A stretch of 32,431 nucleotides of DNA from Clostridia bacterium (GTDB taxonomy: Bacteria > Bacillota > Clostridia > Lachnospirales > Lachnospiraceae): assembly GCA_910574835.1 (NCBI GenBank), contig CAJTDE010000043.1, positions 1 through 32,431 of the forward strand, given 5' to 3'. The notes under the pieces were generated by a model that was given only the letters and a program-made list of their open reading frames with translations, did no database searches and was not told the DNA's origin. The position numbers and the translations under genes were made by a program. Positions within the stretch are counted from its first letter, which is position 1. Each line of letters starts with the position of its first letter. Shown here piece after piece: positions 1 through 32,431 of this stretch.

Positions 1-106
1 GTTATACTGGAAAGTTATCCACTTTTTACACTAAAGCAATGACGAAACAGAAATTTTATTTTCTCTGTTTTGTCCAAAAATCAATGTGCCCTTAACGGGG
101 TGCTGA

Positions 107-25842: not shown

Positions 25843-26589
25843 ATGGATCAATATGGAATGATTCGGGAAATTCTGGAGAAAAGCACCTACACAGTAGCTA
25901 TGTGCGGCACAGACATGATGAAGGAATCGGGAATGCAGAGTATGCGCGCCCCTGAGATTTCATATAAGGTAGAGAGGGAGTACGGCTATTCCCCGGAAGA
26001 GATCTTTTCCTCCGTATTCTACACCAACCGCACGGAGACATTCTTTAAGTATTATAAGAAAGAGATGCTGGAGCCTACCTTGGAGCCAAGCGAAGGATTT
26101 ACCGCCCTTGCGGAGCTGGAGCGGAAAGGACAGCTTCAATATTCCATTACCAATAACGTTTACGATCTGCCGGAGAGGGCCGGATGCAAGAATGTTCTGA
26201 ATCTTCACGGAACGATTTTTGACAACGAGTGTCCGCGGTGCGGAAAGAAGTATCCGATGGAGTACATACGAGACGCAAAAAAGATCCCCCTGTGTGAAAA
26301 GTGCCAGATTCCCGTGCGGCCCAAGGTCATGCTGTTCGGAGAGCAGGTAGACAATCAGCTGATGACCCATGCGGTCAATGAGATTTCCAAGGCGGATGTG
26401 CTGCTGCTTCTCGGCACAACCTTCAGTTCCGGGCTCTGCGACCAGTATGTCAAGTACTTTGAGGGAAGCAGTCTGATTTTGATAAACGGTCAGGAGCACT
26501 TTATGGATGAAAAGGCGGACGTGATTCTTCATGAAGAGGTAAAAACCGCATTGCCGAAGATTGTCTGGCCGGAAGGAAAAAAAGCATAA
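25843..26589 (+). CDS. Divergent Sir2-family protein (NAD-dependent deacylase fold)
   Basis: 248 residues. The Sir2 architecture is clear: catalytic His122 in NVLNLHGT, a zinc ribbon C130-x2-C133 and C151-x2-C154, then RPKVMLFGE and LLLLGTTFSS. The NAD-binding motifs are altered. GAGISxxSGIP is GTDMMKESGMQS (22-33), and TQNIDGLH is TNNVYDLP (103-110), so the usual Asp and first His are missing. The enzyme may use NAD differently or bind another ADP-ribose-type ligand. The ribosome site is AGGAGG and the gene has its own promoter. It stands between an ArsC-like gene and xpt with no obvious functional link. Confidence 0.85.
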   Translation: MDQYGMIREILEKSTYTVAMCGTDMMKESGMQSMRAPEISYKVEREYGYSPEEIFSSVFYTNRTETFFKYYKKEMLEPTLEPSEGFTALAELERKGQLQYSITNNVYDLPERAGCKNVLNLHGTIFDNECPRCGKKYPMEYIRDAKKIPLCEKCQIPVRPKVMLFGEQVDNQLMTHAVNEISKADVLLLLGTTFSSGLCDQYVKYFEGSSLILINGQEHFMDEKADVILHEEVKTALPKIVWPEGKKA

Positions 26590-28330: not shown

Positions 28331-28486
28331 AGCGTGTTTGAAAATTATTTTCTGACAGATGTGCATCGAATTTGTGGGAGATTTGAGCTAAATGAAGGGC
28401 GTGTAGCGGGCAACGTCCTTCATTTGGCTCAAAGATACCGCAAAGTGGGGCGTGCAGGCGGTGGAAATGAATTTGTGAAACACGCT
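28331..28486. repeat. 156-bp palindromic element directly after yitT
   Basis: AGCGTGTTT (28331-28339) matches AAACACGCT (28478-28486) in inverted orientation. An inner 17-base stem pairs 28382-28398 with 28417-28433, with one G-U position. AATTTGTGAAACA occurs both at the end of yitT (near 28312) and in the right end of the element, a possible insertion duplication. Sir2-like coding sequence resumes right after it. Confidence 0.75.
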
Positions 28487-28489
28487 CCG

Positions 28490-28792
28490 GCAGTCCGTGT
28501 CGGAAATCGTGATATGACTGCACGGCAGACAGATATGAAAATACCCTCCGAGCTAATCCCCCATTGTCCCGTGTGCGGAAAACCAATGACAATGAATTTA
28601 AGAGCCGATGACACCTTTGTTCAGGATAAAGGATGGTATCAGGCAGGTGAAAGATATTCAGATTTTATCCGCGGACATAAGGGGCTTCAAGTGCTGCTTC
28701 TGGAGCTTGGTGTTGGTATGAACACTCCGATTATCATAAAATATCCGTTTTGGCAGATGACGGCAGATTTAATTCTATCACTTGGAAAATAG
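28490..28792 (+). pseudogene. C-terminal remnant of a Sir2-family gene
   Basis: The frame reads VGNRDMTARQTDMKIPSELI, then HCPVCGKPMTMNLRADDTF, then LLLELGVGMNTPIIIKYPFW. This is the zinc-ribbon and following part of a Lachnospiraceae Sir2-like protein, different in type from the one at 25843. The N-terminal NAD-binding half is missing, replaced by the palindrome. After QMTA (28765) the sequence departs from the family and hits a stop at 28792. A further piece of the same gene, continuing QMTAANPKAIYAC, appears at 30094-30165. Confidence 0.7.
28721..28774 (+). repeat. Junction repeat copy 1
   Basis: The 45-base core 28721-28765 (AACACTCCGATTATC to GATGACGGCA) lies inside the Sir2 remnant. 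Its right flank GATTTAATT is shared with copy 3 but not with copy 2. Its left flank is ordinary Sir2 coding sequence. Confidence 0.85.
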
Positions 28793-30089
28793 CATTGCTT
28801 TTGCTAACTGTCATGGCGGCAAACTGTATATTGGCATCAGGGATGACGGTACGGTAGCCGGACTTGATAATCCTGACAGTGTTTCTTTGCAGATCAGCAA
28901 TATGGTAAGGGATGCAATTAAGCCCGATGTGACGATGTTCCTGCATTATAAAACAATAAAAGAAGATGGAAAAGAAATTGTTGAGGTGGATATTCAGCGA
29001 GGAACGGATCGCCCTTATTATCTTGCTAAAAAGGGGATGCGTCCGGAGGGTGTATATGTCAGACAGGGATATTTTTCTGTCCCCGCCACTGACACGGTAA
29101 TCCGCCGTATGATCAAGGAGACGGATGGAGACCGCTTTGAAGCTATGCGCTGCTTAAATCAGGAACTTACATTTGAAGCCACAAAAAAAGAATTTGCGCT
29201 TCGGAAAGTGGAGTTTGAGTCACAGCAAATGCGCACTTTGAAGCTCATCGATCAGGATAACCTCTACAGTAACTTAGGTCTGCTTCTGTCTGATCAATGC
29301 GTCCATACGATTAAAGTCGCTGTTTTTCAGGGGACGGATCAGACAATTTTTAAGGATCGCCGGGAATTTACCGGATCGCTGATGCAGCAAATGAACGAAG
29401 TTTATGATTTTATCGATTTCCGCAATCAAACCCGTGCAACCATAGAAAGATTGTTGAGAATTGATGTCAGGGACTATCCTGAGATCGCCGTCAGGGAGGC
29501 GCTTCTAAATCTGCTGGTTCACCGTGATTATTCCTTTAGCGCCAGTGCGCTTATCAGTATTTATACGGATCGGATTGAATTTGTATCCATTGGAGGATTG
29601 ATGCCGGGAATTGATCTGGAAGATATTATGGTAGGCATTTCCGTATGCAGAAATCAGGACCTTGCGAATGTGTTCTACCGGCTGCATCTGATTGAGGCTT
29701 ACGGTACTGGAATGGGAAAGATTATGAGGGCATACGAAGGCATGGAAGAAAAGCCTTCGATTGAAACAACCAAAAATGCCTTTAAGATCATATTGCCTAA
29801 TATTAACGCAAAATATGAAACGGGAAAGTTTTCTGCACCGAAAGCGGAATCAATCACAAGTTCTGCTGCCGGGGCTGAAAAAATCCAAAGCGATGAAGAA
29901 AGAGTATTGGAATATGCCTGGTCTCATGGCGCTATTACAAGAAATGATGTAATCGAATTGCTTAAAGTAAGTACATCTACCGCTTCCAGAGTCATTAGGA
30001 GAATGGTGAAAAGCAACTTGCTAAAGCAGAATGGAAAAGCAAGAAGCACCAACTACACTGTTATAAATAATAAAAATGGTGCGCAATAA
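28782..30089 (+). CDS. AlbA_2/GHKL-ATPase winged-helix putative regulator, 5' truncated
   Basis: 435 residues from TTG 28782. It starts in the middle of the AlbA_2 (Schlafen-like) domain (SIAFANCHGGKLYIGIRDDGTVAGL), so about 20-30 usual N-terminal residues are lost. In-frame TAA 28770-28772 blocks any upstream extension, and no ribosome site precedes the TTG. A GHKL/HATPase-like region follows (REALLNLLVHRDYS, YTDRIEFVSIGG, YGTGMGKIMRAYEG). A C-terminal winged helix ends the protein (NDVIELLKVSTSTASRVIRRM). Intact relatives are annotated as DNA-binding ATPases or transcriptional regulators; their targets are unknown. Its last codons (NGAQ) fall inside the shared junction repeat. It may be non-functional. 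Confidence 0.75.
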   Translation: MENSIAFANCHGGKLYIGIRDDGTVAGLDNPDSVSLQISNMVRDAIKPDVTMFLHYKTIKEDGKEIVEVDIQRGTDRPYYLAKKGMRPEGVYVRQGYFSVPATDTVIRRMIKETDGDRFEAMRCLNQELTFEATKKEFALRKVEFESQQMRTLKLIDQDNLYSNLGLLLSDQCVHTIKVAVFQGTDQTIFKDRREFTGSLMQQMNEVYDFIDFRNQTRATIERLLRIDVRDYPEIAVREALLNLLVHRDYSFSASALISIYTDRIEFVSIGGLMPGIDLEDIMVGISVCRNQDLANVFYRLHLIEAYGTGMGKIMRAYEGMEEKPSIETTKNAFKIILPNINAKYETGKFSAPKAESITSSAAGAEKIQSDEERVLEYAWSHGAITRNDVIELLKVSTSTASRVIRRMVKSNLLKQNGKARSTNYTVINNKNGAQ

Positions 30090-30138
30090 ACATAACGCTC
30101 CGATTATCATAAAATATCCGTTTTAGCAGATGACGGCA
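30073..30138 (+). repeat. Junction repeat copy 2
   Basis: Left flank AAAATGGTGCGCAATAAAC is shared with copy 3. The core is 30094-30138. The right flank continues as authentic Sir2 coding sequence (AANPKAIYAC) rather than GATTTAATT. One core base change turns the TGG codon into TAG in the Sir2 frame. Confidence 0.85.
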
Positions 30139-30165
30139 GCGAATCCGAAGGCAATTTATGCCTGT
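30094..30165 (+). pseudogene. Second fragment of the Sir2-family gene
   Basis: Reads NAPIIIKYPF-stop-QMTAANPKAIYAC in one frame. This repeats the last 15 codons of the remnant at 28490-28765 and then extends it by about 10 codons. It looks like the continuation of the interrupted gene after an insertion. Confidence 0.6.
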
Positions 30166-30206
30166 TTTCAAATAAATAAAAATTTTACTGTTTTGAAACC
30201 GGTTCC

Positions 30207-30235
30207 TTGCATATCCTATTTTGTGTTGGTATAAT
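30207..30235 (+). promoter_or_regulatory. Promoter of the AAA/DUF4143 gene
   Basis: TTGCAT (30207-30212), 17 bases, TATAAT (30230-30235). The frame upstream of ATG 30297 starts exactly on this -35 box, so it cannot be coding. The leader is about 55 bases. Confidence 0.75.
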
Positions 30236-30296
30236 AGGAATTGCAATGTGGTTTCAAAAAAATAAAAAAATCTATTTTTTGAAAGCGAGCGATTAT

Positions 30297-31511
30297 ATGA
30301 AGACAATAACAAGAACAAAGTATCTGAATAGGGTAATTGAGTTGAACCAGACTCCTGATATTAAAATCATTACAGGCATTCGTCGTTCGGGAAAGTCAAA
30401 ATTGATGCAGGCATATATTGAGTACCTGAAAAATCATTATGAAAATATCAATATTATCTTTATTGACTTTATGGATCTGATATATGAAGAAATCAGAGAG
30501 TATCACGCACTTCATGCTTACGTAGAGGAACATTTTCAAGAGGAAAAAGCAAATTACCTTTTCGTGGATGAAGTTCAAATGTGTCCCAAATTTGAATTGG
30601 CGCTCAACAGTCTTTATTCCAAAGGAAAATATGATATTTATATTACAGGTTCTAATGCCTTTTTATTAAGTGCTGATCTGGCAACTCTTTTTACCGGACG
30701 TTATATTGAAATTCATGTGTTTCCATTCAGTTTTCAGGAATACTGCCAGTATTATGATGAGACTGGCGATAAGGAAAAACTCTTTGATGAGTATTTCATA
30801 AAGGGAGGACTGGCAGGTTCTTACGCTTACAGAACGGAAAGGGATAGAATAAATTACATTAAGGAAGTTTATGAAACGATTGTCACGAGAGACCTTGTGC
30901 AGAAATATTCTTTGCCGGATACGCTGGTTCTGCAAAGACTGAGCGAATTTCTCATGGATAACATCAGCAACCTTACTTCTCCAAACAAGGTCAGTCAGCT
31001 GCTGACAGCAAATAAGACAACAACTAATCATGTAACAGTCGGAAGATATATTAAATATTTGTGCAATGCCTTTGTTTTTTATGACATAAAGCGTTATGAT
31101 ATCCGGGGAAAGAAGTATTTGGAAAGTTCTGAAAAATTTTATTTGTGCGATACAGGTATCCGATATGCCATTTTGGGAAGCAGGAATATAGACTATGGCA
31201 GAGTATATGAGAATATGGTCTGTATTGAACTGCTCCGCCGGGGATATGATGTGTATGTCGGAAAATTGTATCAGAAGGAAATTGATTTTGTAGTGCAAAA
31301 AGGGAGCGAGAAAATCTATATCCAGGTCAGTGACAATATTTCGGATCAGAATACCCTTGAAAGAGAATGTTTGCCATTACTGCAAATCCGAGATGCTTAT
31401 CCCAAAAAGGTCATTGCCAGGACCAGGCACCCGAAATATGGTTATGAGGGTATTGAGATTTACAATATAGTTGATTGGCTGTTGCAGGAAGAGGAAAATG
31501 GCGCGCAATAA
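30297..31511 (+). CDS. AAA_14/DUF4143 ATP-binding protein
   Basis: 404 residues. Walker A is GIRRSGKSK (27-35) and Walker B YLFVDEVQ (about 86-93). Sensor-like YITGSNAFLLS and the DUF4143 signature KGGLAGSYAY follow. The C-terminal domain (YENMVCIELLRRGYDVYVGK, EIDFVVQKG, IYIQV) has PD-(D/E)XK-like features. These ATPases are abundant in Bacteroidetes and Clostridia and largely uncharacterised. The start is fixed by the upstream promoter. The gene is complete, and its last residues NGAQ are supplied by junction repeat copy 3. It lies between two Sir2-derived repeats, so it looks like a self-contained cassette with its own promoter. Confidence 0.88.
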   Translation: MKTITRTKYLNRVIELNQTPDIKIITGIRRSGKSKLMQAYIEYLKNHYENINIIFIDFMDLIYEEIREYHALHAYVEEHFQEEKANYLFVDEVQMCPKFELALNSLYSKGKYDIYITGSNAFLLSADLATLFTGRYIEIHVFPFSFQEYCQYYDETGDKEKLFDEYFIKGGLAGSYAYRTERDRINYIKEVYETIVTRDLVQKYSLPDTLVLQRLSEFLMDNISNLTSPNKVSQLLTANKTTTNHVTVGRYIKYLCNAFVFYDIKRYDIRGKKYLESSEKFYLCDTGIRYAILGSRNIDYGRVYENMVCIELLRRGYDVYVGKLYQKEIDFVVQKGSEKIYIQVSDNISDQNTLERECLPLLQIRDAYPKKVIARTRHPKYGYEGIEIYNIVDWLLQEEENGAQ

Positions 31512-31569
31512 ACATAACGCTCCGATTATCATAAAATATCCGTTTTGGCAGATGACGGCAGATTTAATT
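31495..31569 (+). repeat. Junction repeat copy 3
   Basis: It combines the left flank of copy 2 (AAAATGGCGCGCAATAAAC), the 45-base core (31516-31560) and the right flank of copy 1 (GATTTAATT, 31561-31569). An ATG at 31498 would read MARNKHNAPIIIKYPFW and on to a stop at 31623, a 41-residue frame I do not regard as a gene. Confidence 0.85.
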
Positions 31570-31600: not shown

Positions 31601-32371
31601 AGTTCGGCATATTCAGGAGATAAATATGATGCGTGGATGGATTATTGTACCTATGGGGGATTGCCGCTGATACTGAGCAGAAAAACAGATGAATTAAAGT
31701 CAAAGTATCTGATTGATTTGTGCAGGGAGTTATATCTGAAGGATATTGAAGAGCGTCATGGGCTGCGCGGAGATAACTGTATGGCGGCACTGGTAAATAT
31801 CCTTGCATCGGCGGTGGGGTCTTTGACCAATCCTCTAAAACTGGCGAATACTTTTGGCAGCAATGGGATGCATGTCAGCGATAAAACTATAGGAATTTAT
31901 ATCGGATATCTGTTAGATGCTTTTTTTATCAGCAAAGCAGAACGGTATGACATCAAGGGAAAAAGATATATTGCTTCCCCCTTTAAATATTACTTCACGG
32001 ATGTGGGGCTGCGCAATGCCCAGCTTAACTTCAGACAGCAGGAAGAAAACCATATTATGGAGAACATTATTTACAATGAGCTGCTGATTAGAGGATTTAA
32101 TGTGGATGTTGGCGTTGTGGAGCATTCCGAACGCAATGAGAATGGAAAGATGGTGCGCAAGAGGTTGGAGGTGGATTTTGTCTGCAACCGTGGCAATCAG
32201 AGATATTATATTCAGTCTGCCTTTGCGATTCCGGACAGCAGCAAAATGCAGAAGGAGCAGAAGTCATTGGTGCATATTGGCGATTCTTTTAAGAAAATCA
32301 TTGTAGTCAAGGACAGGATTAAATTAACTCGTTGTGCTACTTATATAATTAATAACACATACTTTGCTTAA
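31601..32371 (+). pseudogene. Headless AAA_14/DUF4143 ATPase gene
   Basis: The frame opens after TAA 31598-31600 and reads GDKYDAWMDYCTYGGLPLIL, which corresponds to the middle of the family. It runs through the DUF4143 region (ADKYR-like AERYDIKGKRYIASPFKYYFTDVGLRNA) to the C-terminal nuclease-like part (LEVDFVCNRGNQRYYIQ) and a normal stop. The whole P-loop half is absent and junction repeat copy 3 sits where it should be. First ATG 31637 gives 244 residues but has no ribosome site. It is a different paralogue from the intact gene beside it. The remaining 60 bases of the window show nothing identifiable. Confidence 0.75.
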
Positions 32372-32431
32372 ACACTGAAAAAGCGCAAAAAGTCCCTATG
32401 ATTTTTCGAAATATTTTTTTAGAATATCAGT

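Follow-up and report, generated by a model that had tools for sequence, protein, structure and literature searches.

Integrons collect single genes as cassettes that stack one behind another, each with a short recombination site right behind its stop codon, and their cassettes are rich in toxin-antitoxin and defence-type genes. The staphylococcal cassette chromosome (SCC) sits at the 3' end of rlmH/orfX, and SCC cassettes without ccr exist. Here we describe an arrangement that recalls both, in a 32,431-nt contig of a Lachnospiraceae bacterium (CAJTDE010000043.1; the whole stretch is called the window, and positions count from its first letter). Gut relatives of this host stack small, swappable, defence-like genes at one fixed point in a sirtuin gene, in an integron-like manner. 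The gene is SirTM, a macrodomain-linked ADP-ribosylating (class M) sirtuin, and the fixed point is its codon 254 (LGVGx-N-TPG), which is met by a 16-18 bp element half-site, GGYGCGCAATAAACAT-AA, termed P-half below. Arrays read SirTM, cargo, GGYGCGCAATAAACAT(AA), SirTM from codon 254, next cargo. The window is best explained as a decaying array of three cassettes in the SirTM gene. L numbers denote the sequence stretches that were fetched and G numbers genomes, with a contig written as G:C; G000 is the genome of the window.

Like integrons, the SirTM arrays stack single-gene cassettes that each end in a common recombination site. This site is not attC, however; judged by sequence, it is an unfolded-looking half-site beside a coding target. 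The candidate enzyme is a serine and not a tyrosine recombinase, and promoter-like sequences precede the cargo genes. No intI-attI platform was seen, no intI search having been made and no tested cargo model being such an integrase. With SCC and the Enterococcus cassette chromosome (ECC; PMC6222049), the arrays share a large serine recombinase (LSR), direct-repeat att sites, several attR in one place and variable cargo. They differ in that a cassette mostly holds one gene, in that the array usually holds no recombinase, and in the target, which is an internal codon of SirTM and not rlmH/orfX. Nor is the LSR found in L092 a ccrAB or ccrC product, as it scored 40.3 bits (CcrB) and 29.6 bits (CcrC) against cut-offs of 900. 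Its domain content is that of the TndX/TnpX-like LSR elements (DUF4368 clade), and the AA/TT junction fits the TT core of one such LSR. That clade is described as multi-targeting (PMC10083194), whereas the five LSR right ends of our exact scan, and that of L172, all lie in SirTM codon 254.

In the titles and abstract openings searched, we found no description of SirTM cassette arrays; most subscription papers and preprints were outside this coverage. If our reading is true, common gut bacteria would have an integron-like route for trading defence-type genes, including the widespread AAA/DUF4143 gene (PDC-S01). The arrays also make testable whether a serine recombinase works reversibly when its two sites share one half, and how single genes gain a recombination half-site, a question that to our knowledge is open for integron cassettes too.

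A precise right end at codon 254 of SirTM

The initial annotation of the window had called the host gene Sir2. It is a sirtuin, of the SirTM type and not a generic Sir2: a full-length homologue (L073) matches the SirTM structure 5a3a-c at E 1.8e-66, and did not reach the 1e-3 threshold against Pfam SIR2. PADLOC gave no match for SirTM. Linkage to a macrodomain gene defines SirTM, and Lachnospiraceae are named in that context (PMC4518038). Such a gene lies directly upstream of SirTM in L202, which comes from G009, a genome of the window's genus whose glyA is identical and stands some 7 kb before SirTM; in the window the linkage has been lost. Structural similarity and linkage together place the gene among the SirTM. 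Empty sites, as the initial annotation would lead one to expect, were found in relatives in the form of uninterrupted SirTM genes, and SirTM stands without P-half in the fetched stretches of G333, G334, G005, G006 and G199:C23.

A precise right end recurs behind unrelated cargos. An exact scan for the 17-mer GGYGCGCAATAAACATA gave 72 matches in 71 stretches, with a SirTM 3' piece behind 38 and a cargo of a tested type before 45; 50 matches had a cargo and/or a SirTM neighbour and 22 had neither. Most of these 22 we take as chance matches: many are from unrelated phyla, and an arithmetic estimate at equal base frequencies gives about 60 chance matches. Two of them (L027, L088) are found at loci whose arrays have variant half-sites. 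A longer pattern, with up to two mismatches, was present at 16 sites in 12 of 299 family genomes; the genome of the window is one of the 12, and two of the sites are the window's. The reversed control of this pattern was found in none of the 299. We also used a test free of any pattern, in which SirTM was sought by protein searches and its detached 3' ends were scored for a preceding P-half. Nine of the ten detached ends lay behind a P-half (5 of 6 if the window genome is set aside along with G216, a genome picked by means of the pattern): five in the window's genus (G002 twice, G009, G014 and the window), three in G216 and one in G337.

Conservation over 46 sites is high between -16 and -1 ahead of the AA and drops at -17, its level being biased in that many of the aligned sites were selected by pattern. 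Variants of the half-site read GGTGCGCAAAAAACAT (L088), GGTGCGCAGTAAATAT (L172) and GGTGCGCAATAAACAA (G216). Cargo homology stops 0-9 nt from the 17-mer end in 44 of the pairs counted and beyond that end in others.

Other cargos between such junctions, anticipated by the initial annotation, do exist, and the same half-site follows unrelated cargos in many genomes. The 40 distinct right ends that are followed by SirTM belong to AAA/DUF4143 genes (14, in three groups), AlbA_2/GHKL genes (12), AbiE (4), LSR (5) and five unmatched cargos; among the last, L109 is YoeB, L110 RhuM-Fic and L116 AbiEii, and L035 and L108 remain unclassified. In PADLOC the AAA genes match PDC-S01 and the RhuM-Fic gene PDC-S23, AbiEi/AbiEii are recognised under their own names, and YoeB has no match. 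Multi-unit arrays are found in L031, L032, L088 and L197.

As a separate observation, a DUF4143 gene is joined mid-gene to GGTGCGCAATAAACATA in L030 (about 4966) and L017 (about 1501); at the corresponding place the homologue in the window has ATGGTGCGCAAGAGG (32149-32163). These joins may have arisen by recombination at a look-alike site.

The array in the window

The features of the array are the following (strand in brackets).

28508..28765 (+): remnant of SirTM that keeps the middle and the 3' part as far as the core; 92% nucleotide identity to L202 SirTM (over 28508-28767)
28721..28765 (+): core copy 1 at the array head, SirTM codons 254-268 of native type
28766..28774 (+): GATTTAATT, start of the AlbA cassette; identical junction in L052 (Dorea sp. 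5-2)
28782..30089 (+): cargo 1, headless AlbA_2/GHKL gene ending in NGAQ-stop; Pfam SLFN_AlbA_2 and HATPase_c_4
30078..30095 (+): P-half (element right end) GGTGCGCAATAAACATAA, its AA in common with codon 254
30094..30165 (+): core copy 2 (30094-30138) and more of the displaced native SirTM 3' end, with TAG
30300..31511 (+): cargo 2, AAA/DUF4143 gene (PADLOC PDC-S01) ending in NGAQ-stop; Pfam AAA_14 and DUF4143
31500..31517 (+): P-half GGCGCGCAATAAACATAA
31516..31560 (+): core copy 3
31561..31569 (+): GATTTAATT behind core copy 3
31637..32322, end approximate (+): cargo 3, second AAA/DUF4143 gene, headless and 3'-cut by an insertion sequence; Pfam DUF4143
32318..32431 (strand not assigned): end of the insertion sequence with DDE transposase, closing the contig; 89% identical to L202 4945-5056

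The initial annotation, which is partly supported as a whole, had reported three 45-bp repeats with one or two differences. The coordinates given there (28721-28765, 30094-30138 and 31516-31560) are exact, with two mismatches between copies 1 and 2 and one each between copies 1 and 3 and copies 2 and 3. The three copies are real and far beyond chance: no other place in the window matches copy 1 at more than 24/45, and 200 shuffled windows reach 27/45 at best. The flanks are shared as described, copies 2 and 3 having 13 identical bases in common on the left (more beyond, if a mismatch is allowed) and copies 1 and 3 a further nine on the right (GATTTAATT). Likewise, only core 2 continues as sirtuin sequence, for about 28 nt, with the TAG lying inside the core. 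The core is a conserved sirtuin segment adjoining the true junction. The junctions are in the sirtuin gene as proposed, but the telling point is the half-site that meets codon 254 and not the 45-bp core.

Descriptions of the cargos needed revision. Two of them do end in NGAQ, but the stop is supplied by the left flank (AATGGYGCGCAATAA) and not by the core. The AlbA_2/GHKL cargo had been taken as complete; it lacks its head, because its Pfam match starts at profile position 23 and L052 holds a full gene behind an identical GATTTAATT. Cargo 2 matches PDC-S01 at E 2.7e-150. Cargo 3 is headless, as stated, and is in addition cut at its 3' end by the insertion sequence at the contig end; an intact homologue is found in L025. 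The insertion sequence, whose counterpart in L202 has a DDE_Tnp_1_3 match, is presumably IS982-like.

The initial annotation had advised looking past the end of the window for a further copy or an integrase. G000:C30 has the left flank of cores 2 and 3 once more, following the end of a DUF4143 gene that corresponds to the last part of cargo 3. Since the end of the window and that of G000:C30 match successive parts of one uninterrupted L025 gene, with a transposase gene at both breaks, G000:C30 probably continues the array and holds another right end, without a SirTM piece behind it.

In the window, the SirTM remnant shows 71% amino acid identity in its SirTM match; the gene has lost its first part, and the macrodomain gene is gone. 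The displaced end (30073-30165) is 91% identical at the nucleotide level to that of L202. A plausible history is that the SirTM gene acquired the cassettes, that the macrodomain gene and the heads of SirTM, AlbA_2 and the third cargo were then lost, and that an insertion sequence entered the third cargo of what would be a decaying array. The GATTTAATT that follows core 3 may have been copied locally from the one that follows core 1. Upstream of the SirTM operon, L202 has many tandem copies (198-588) of a unit of about 39 bp; a single copy is left in the window (28463-28507), where it adjoins the deletion. A separate SIR2 gene, recognised by Pfam (PF02146) and distinct from SirTM, lies at 25843-26589.

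Displaced ends and the movement of cassettes

The clearest case of displacement is L202, whose gene is 92% identical to that of the window over 260 nt. Set against window core 1, its displaced segment, behind cassette and P-half, has 3 differences in 45 positions and its head segment has 11. The native SirTM 3' end has been moved downstream, and a foreign 3' end stands in its place. Between the head of L027 and a displaced piece of L088, identity jumps from 0.51 to 0.95 at codon 254. We compared 5' and 3' identities in the 14 listed pairs with the most similar 5' parts. In the two array-free pairs, which are few as controls, they agree (84/84 and 79/80, the second with the broken gene of G335). 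In eight of the ten other pairs without the window, the 3' identity lies 7 points or more below the 5' identity (93/76, 85/73, 83/69 and 80/59 among them), and in two there is no such drop (79/77, 74/76). Near-identical cassettes occur in distant genomes: the AlbA cassettes of the window and of L052 are 95.6% identical, and the window's AAA cassette (30163-31561) is 97.8% identical to L202 and 96.2% to L090, with glyA of the L052 and L090 genomes at 68% and 74% to the window's.

We consider that the best explanation, to which we give a probability of about 0.6, is insertion by an LSR at codon 254, with cassettes mobilised in trans, the target regenerated, and homologous shuffling in addition. 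A cassette, mostly one gene or a toxin-antitoxin pair ending in the P-half, would enter SirTM at codon 254 and leave the order host SirTM 5' part, SirTM 3' end, cargo, P-half and displaced SirTM 3' end. Because the incoming 3' piece would resemble the displaced one, the left junction would again be a usable target, and cassettes could stack at the array head, as at integron attI. The likely enzyme would be a DUF4368 LSR of the TndX-like clade, encoded by a sister element with an identical P-half and acting in trans on cassettes without a recombinase of their own; homologous recombination between the repeated SirTM 3' ends would shuffle or remove cassettes. More tentatively, and short of an even chance in our view, the arrays may be a Lachnospiraceae gene-capture system of their own kind, made of recombinase-less, mostly single-gene defence or toxin-antitoxin cassettes with only the 16-18 bp half-site in common, in which the other half of the cassette mimics the target gene, so that each insertion regenerates both the target and a full-length sirtuin and a rare LSR in trans could add or remove cassettes by one reaction.

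That no integrase is visible in the window, as noted initially, is correct; in relatives, however, an LSR gene ends 12-29 nt short of the half-site. In L092, the gene that precedes the P-half encodes Resolvase, Recombinase, zinc ribbon and DUF4368 domains, and LSR C-termini that are 69-100% identical end at that distance in L058, L069, L084, L087, L172 and L092. An LSR gene thus lies beside the attachment site at six loci, all with SirTM behind. L057 holds just a middle LSR fragment, with no SirTM behind. The LSR and AbiE tails have further bases in common before the P-half, TAAATGAYTTYATTTT, which would link the LSR element to the other cassettes. According to PMC10083194, DUF4368 is found in 63% of LSRs of the multi-targeting clade with TndX-like transposases and in 0.73% of site-specific LSRs, and one LSR of that clade has a TT core. 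The AA at codon 254 fits a TT-type core and may be the crossover.

The L092 locus suggests that its LSR is part of a larger mobilisable element with the left end off the contig. Two ORFs lie upstream (361-1618), which we take to be sigma-factor-like and, for the small one, TnpW-like; the small one had no Pfam match. Several more recombinase-family ORFs surround the LSR and a SirTM remnant on the viral contig L172 (3-8429).

A number of findings speak against insertion by this LSR. No intact copy was seen: that of L092 has an in-frame stop, that of L172 has no N-terminus, and L058, L069, L084 and L087 show just the C-terminal part. For most arrays, the window's included, no LSR was seen within the array. 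A close LSR was present in 3 of 20 array genomes, and, with up to five candidates scored per genome, in 0 of 397 family genomes and 1 of 391 class genomes, the one being that of L092; the class scan gave four other LSRs at 41-45% identity, the fetched stretches showing no SirTM. DUF4368 is a marker of LSRs with relaxed specificity (PMC10083194). At the junctions themselves, 12 of the 72 17-mer matches have a cargo and no SirTM behind, and the tenth detached 3' end (G011:C81, of the window's genus) has no P-half. Also, were LSR insertion to act alone, the SirTM 3' ends of near-identical cargos should agree from codon 254 onward. Of nine same-cargo pairs, one (L027/L088) changes at codon 254; the other eight share the 3' end just from scattered points +36 to +154 nt after it (two of the intervals being wide and reaching down to +4 and +26). 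Mean 3' identity was 73.5% in 30 same-cargo pairs against 72.8% in 295 others, and these averages do not support the idea that a cargo always moves together with its own SirTM 3' end. Among 78 pieces compared, 3' identity reached at least 86% in four pairs: L027/L088 (change at -1..2), L204/L085 (-3..80; L204 is an uninterrupted gene, so that this pair bears on the displaced end alone), L202/L032 (18..75) and one unrelated pair.

Because near-identical cargos mostly share the 3' end from beyond codon 254, we propose insertion followed by later recombination between the repeated 3' ends; homologous recombination thus appears to act too. It could also do most of the moving, an old site-specific event having made the P-half/SirTM junction, with circles or linear DNA that carry cargo, P-half and SirTM 3' end recombining via the repeated ends. 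The scattered change points of the eight pairs argue for this, as do the copies of the SirTM 3' end that flank each array cargo and the head and displaced pieces of L073, identical over 110 nt. Left unexplained would be why one half-site stands behind unrelated cargos with different tails, and why the change falls exactly at codon 254 in L027/L088, and we regard this account as unlikely.

Another site-specific recombinase (tyrosine, DDE or of a further kind), encoded elsewhere, with the LSR genes as mere cargo, would fit the absence of the LSR from most array genomes tested and the broken or incomplete state of the copies seen. The LSR lies at one distance class from the half-site in six loci, however, as integrase genes often lie beside their site, and no other recombinase was found at the 40 classed right ends, recombinases elsewhere in the genomes not having been surveyed; we hold this to be improbable. 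Segmental duplication of one locus, the fallback named in the initial annotation, would suit the near-identity of the three window cores. As a general explanation we reject it, since many genomes have the half-site behind unrelated cargos and distant genomes have cargos in common.

The initial annotation had also read the cores as a duplicated target. A general 45-bp target-site duplication is rejected: in most listed arrays, the array's own head and displaced 3' ends are near background identity (mean 70.8%, sd 5.3), with higher values in the window, in one L088 piece and in L073 and L027. On either side of the AlbA cassette, in L052 as in the window, the core seems to come from the host, and these two do resemble a duplication. 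Target-primed reverse transcription, with its precise 3' and truncated 5' end, was considered for the headless AlbA_2 gene of the window and rejected; since L052 has the full gene behind the same GATTTAATT, the loss of the head resembles an internal deletion.

Cargo genes outside the arrays

In the region, a promoter scan returned 22 sites, where shuffles gave 12.3 +- 3.7; the scan was not taken as evidence. Phage carriage of the arrays was considered and rejected, the AAA gene on a phage-labelled contig matching at 75% with no P-half within 4 mismatches and no SirTM. Plasmid carriage fared no better, with just partial matches (60-80%) in four plasmid records, and of five 17-mer stretches from viral contigs, none matched the SirTM, AlbA, AAA1 or AAA2 references. 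An AAA/DUF4143 gene at 84% amino acid identity is found on the phage-labelled contig of L223 (MT836380.1, 6992-8188); because this copy has neither P-half nor SirTM, the AAA/DUF4143 cargo also travels outside the arrays.

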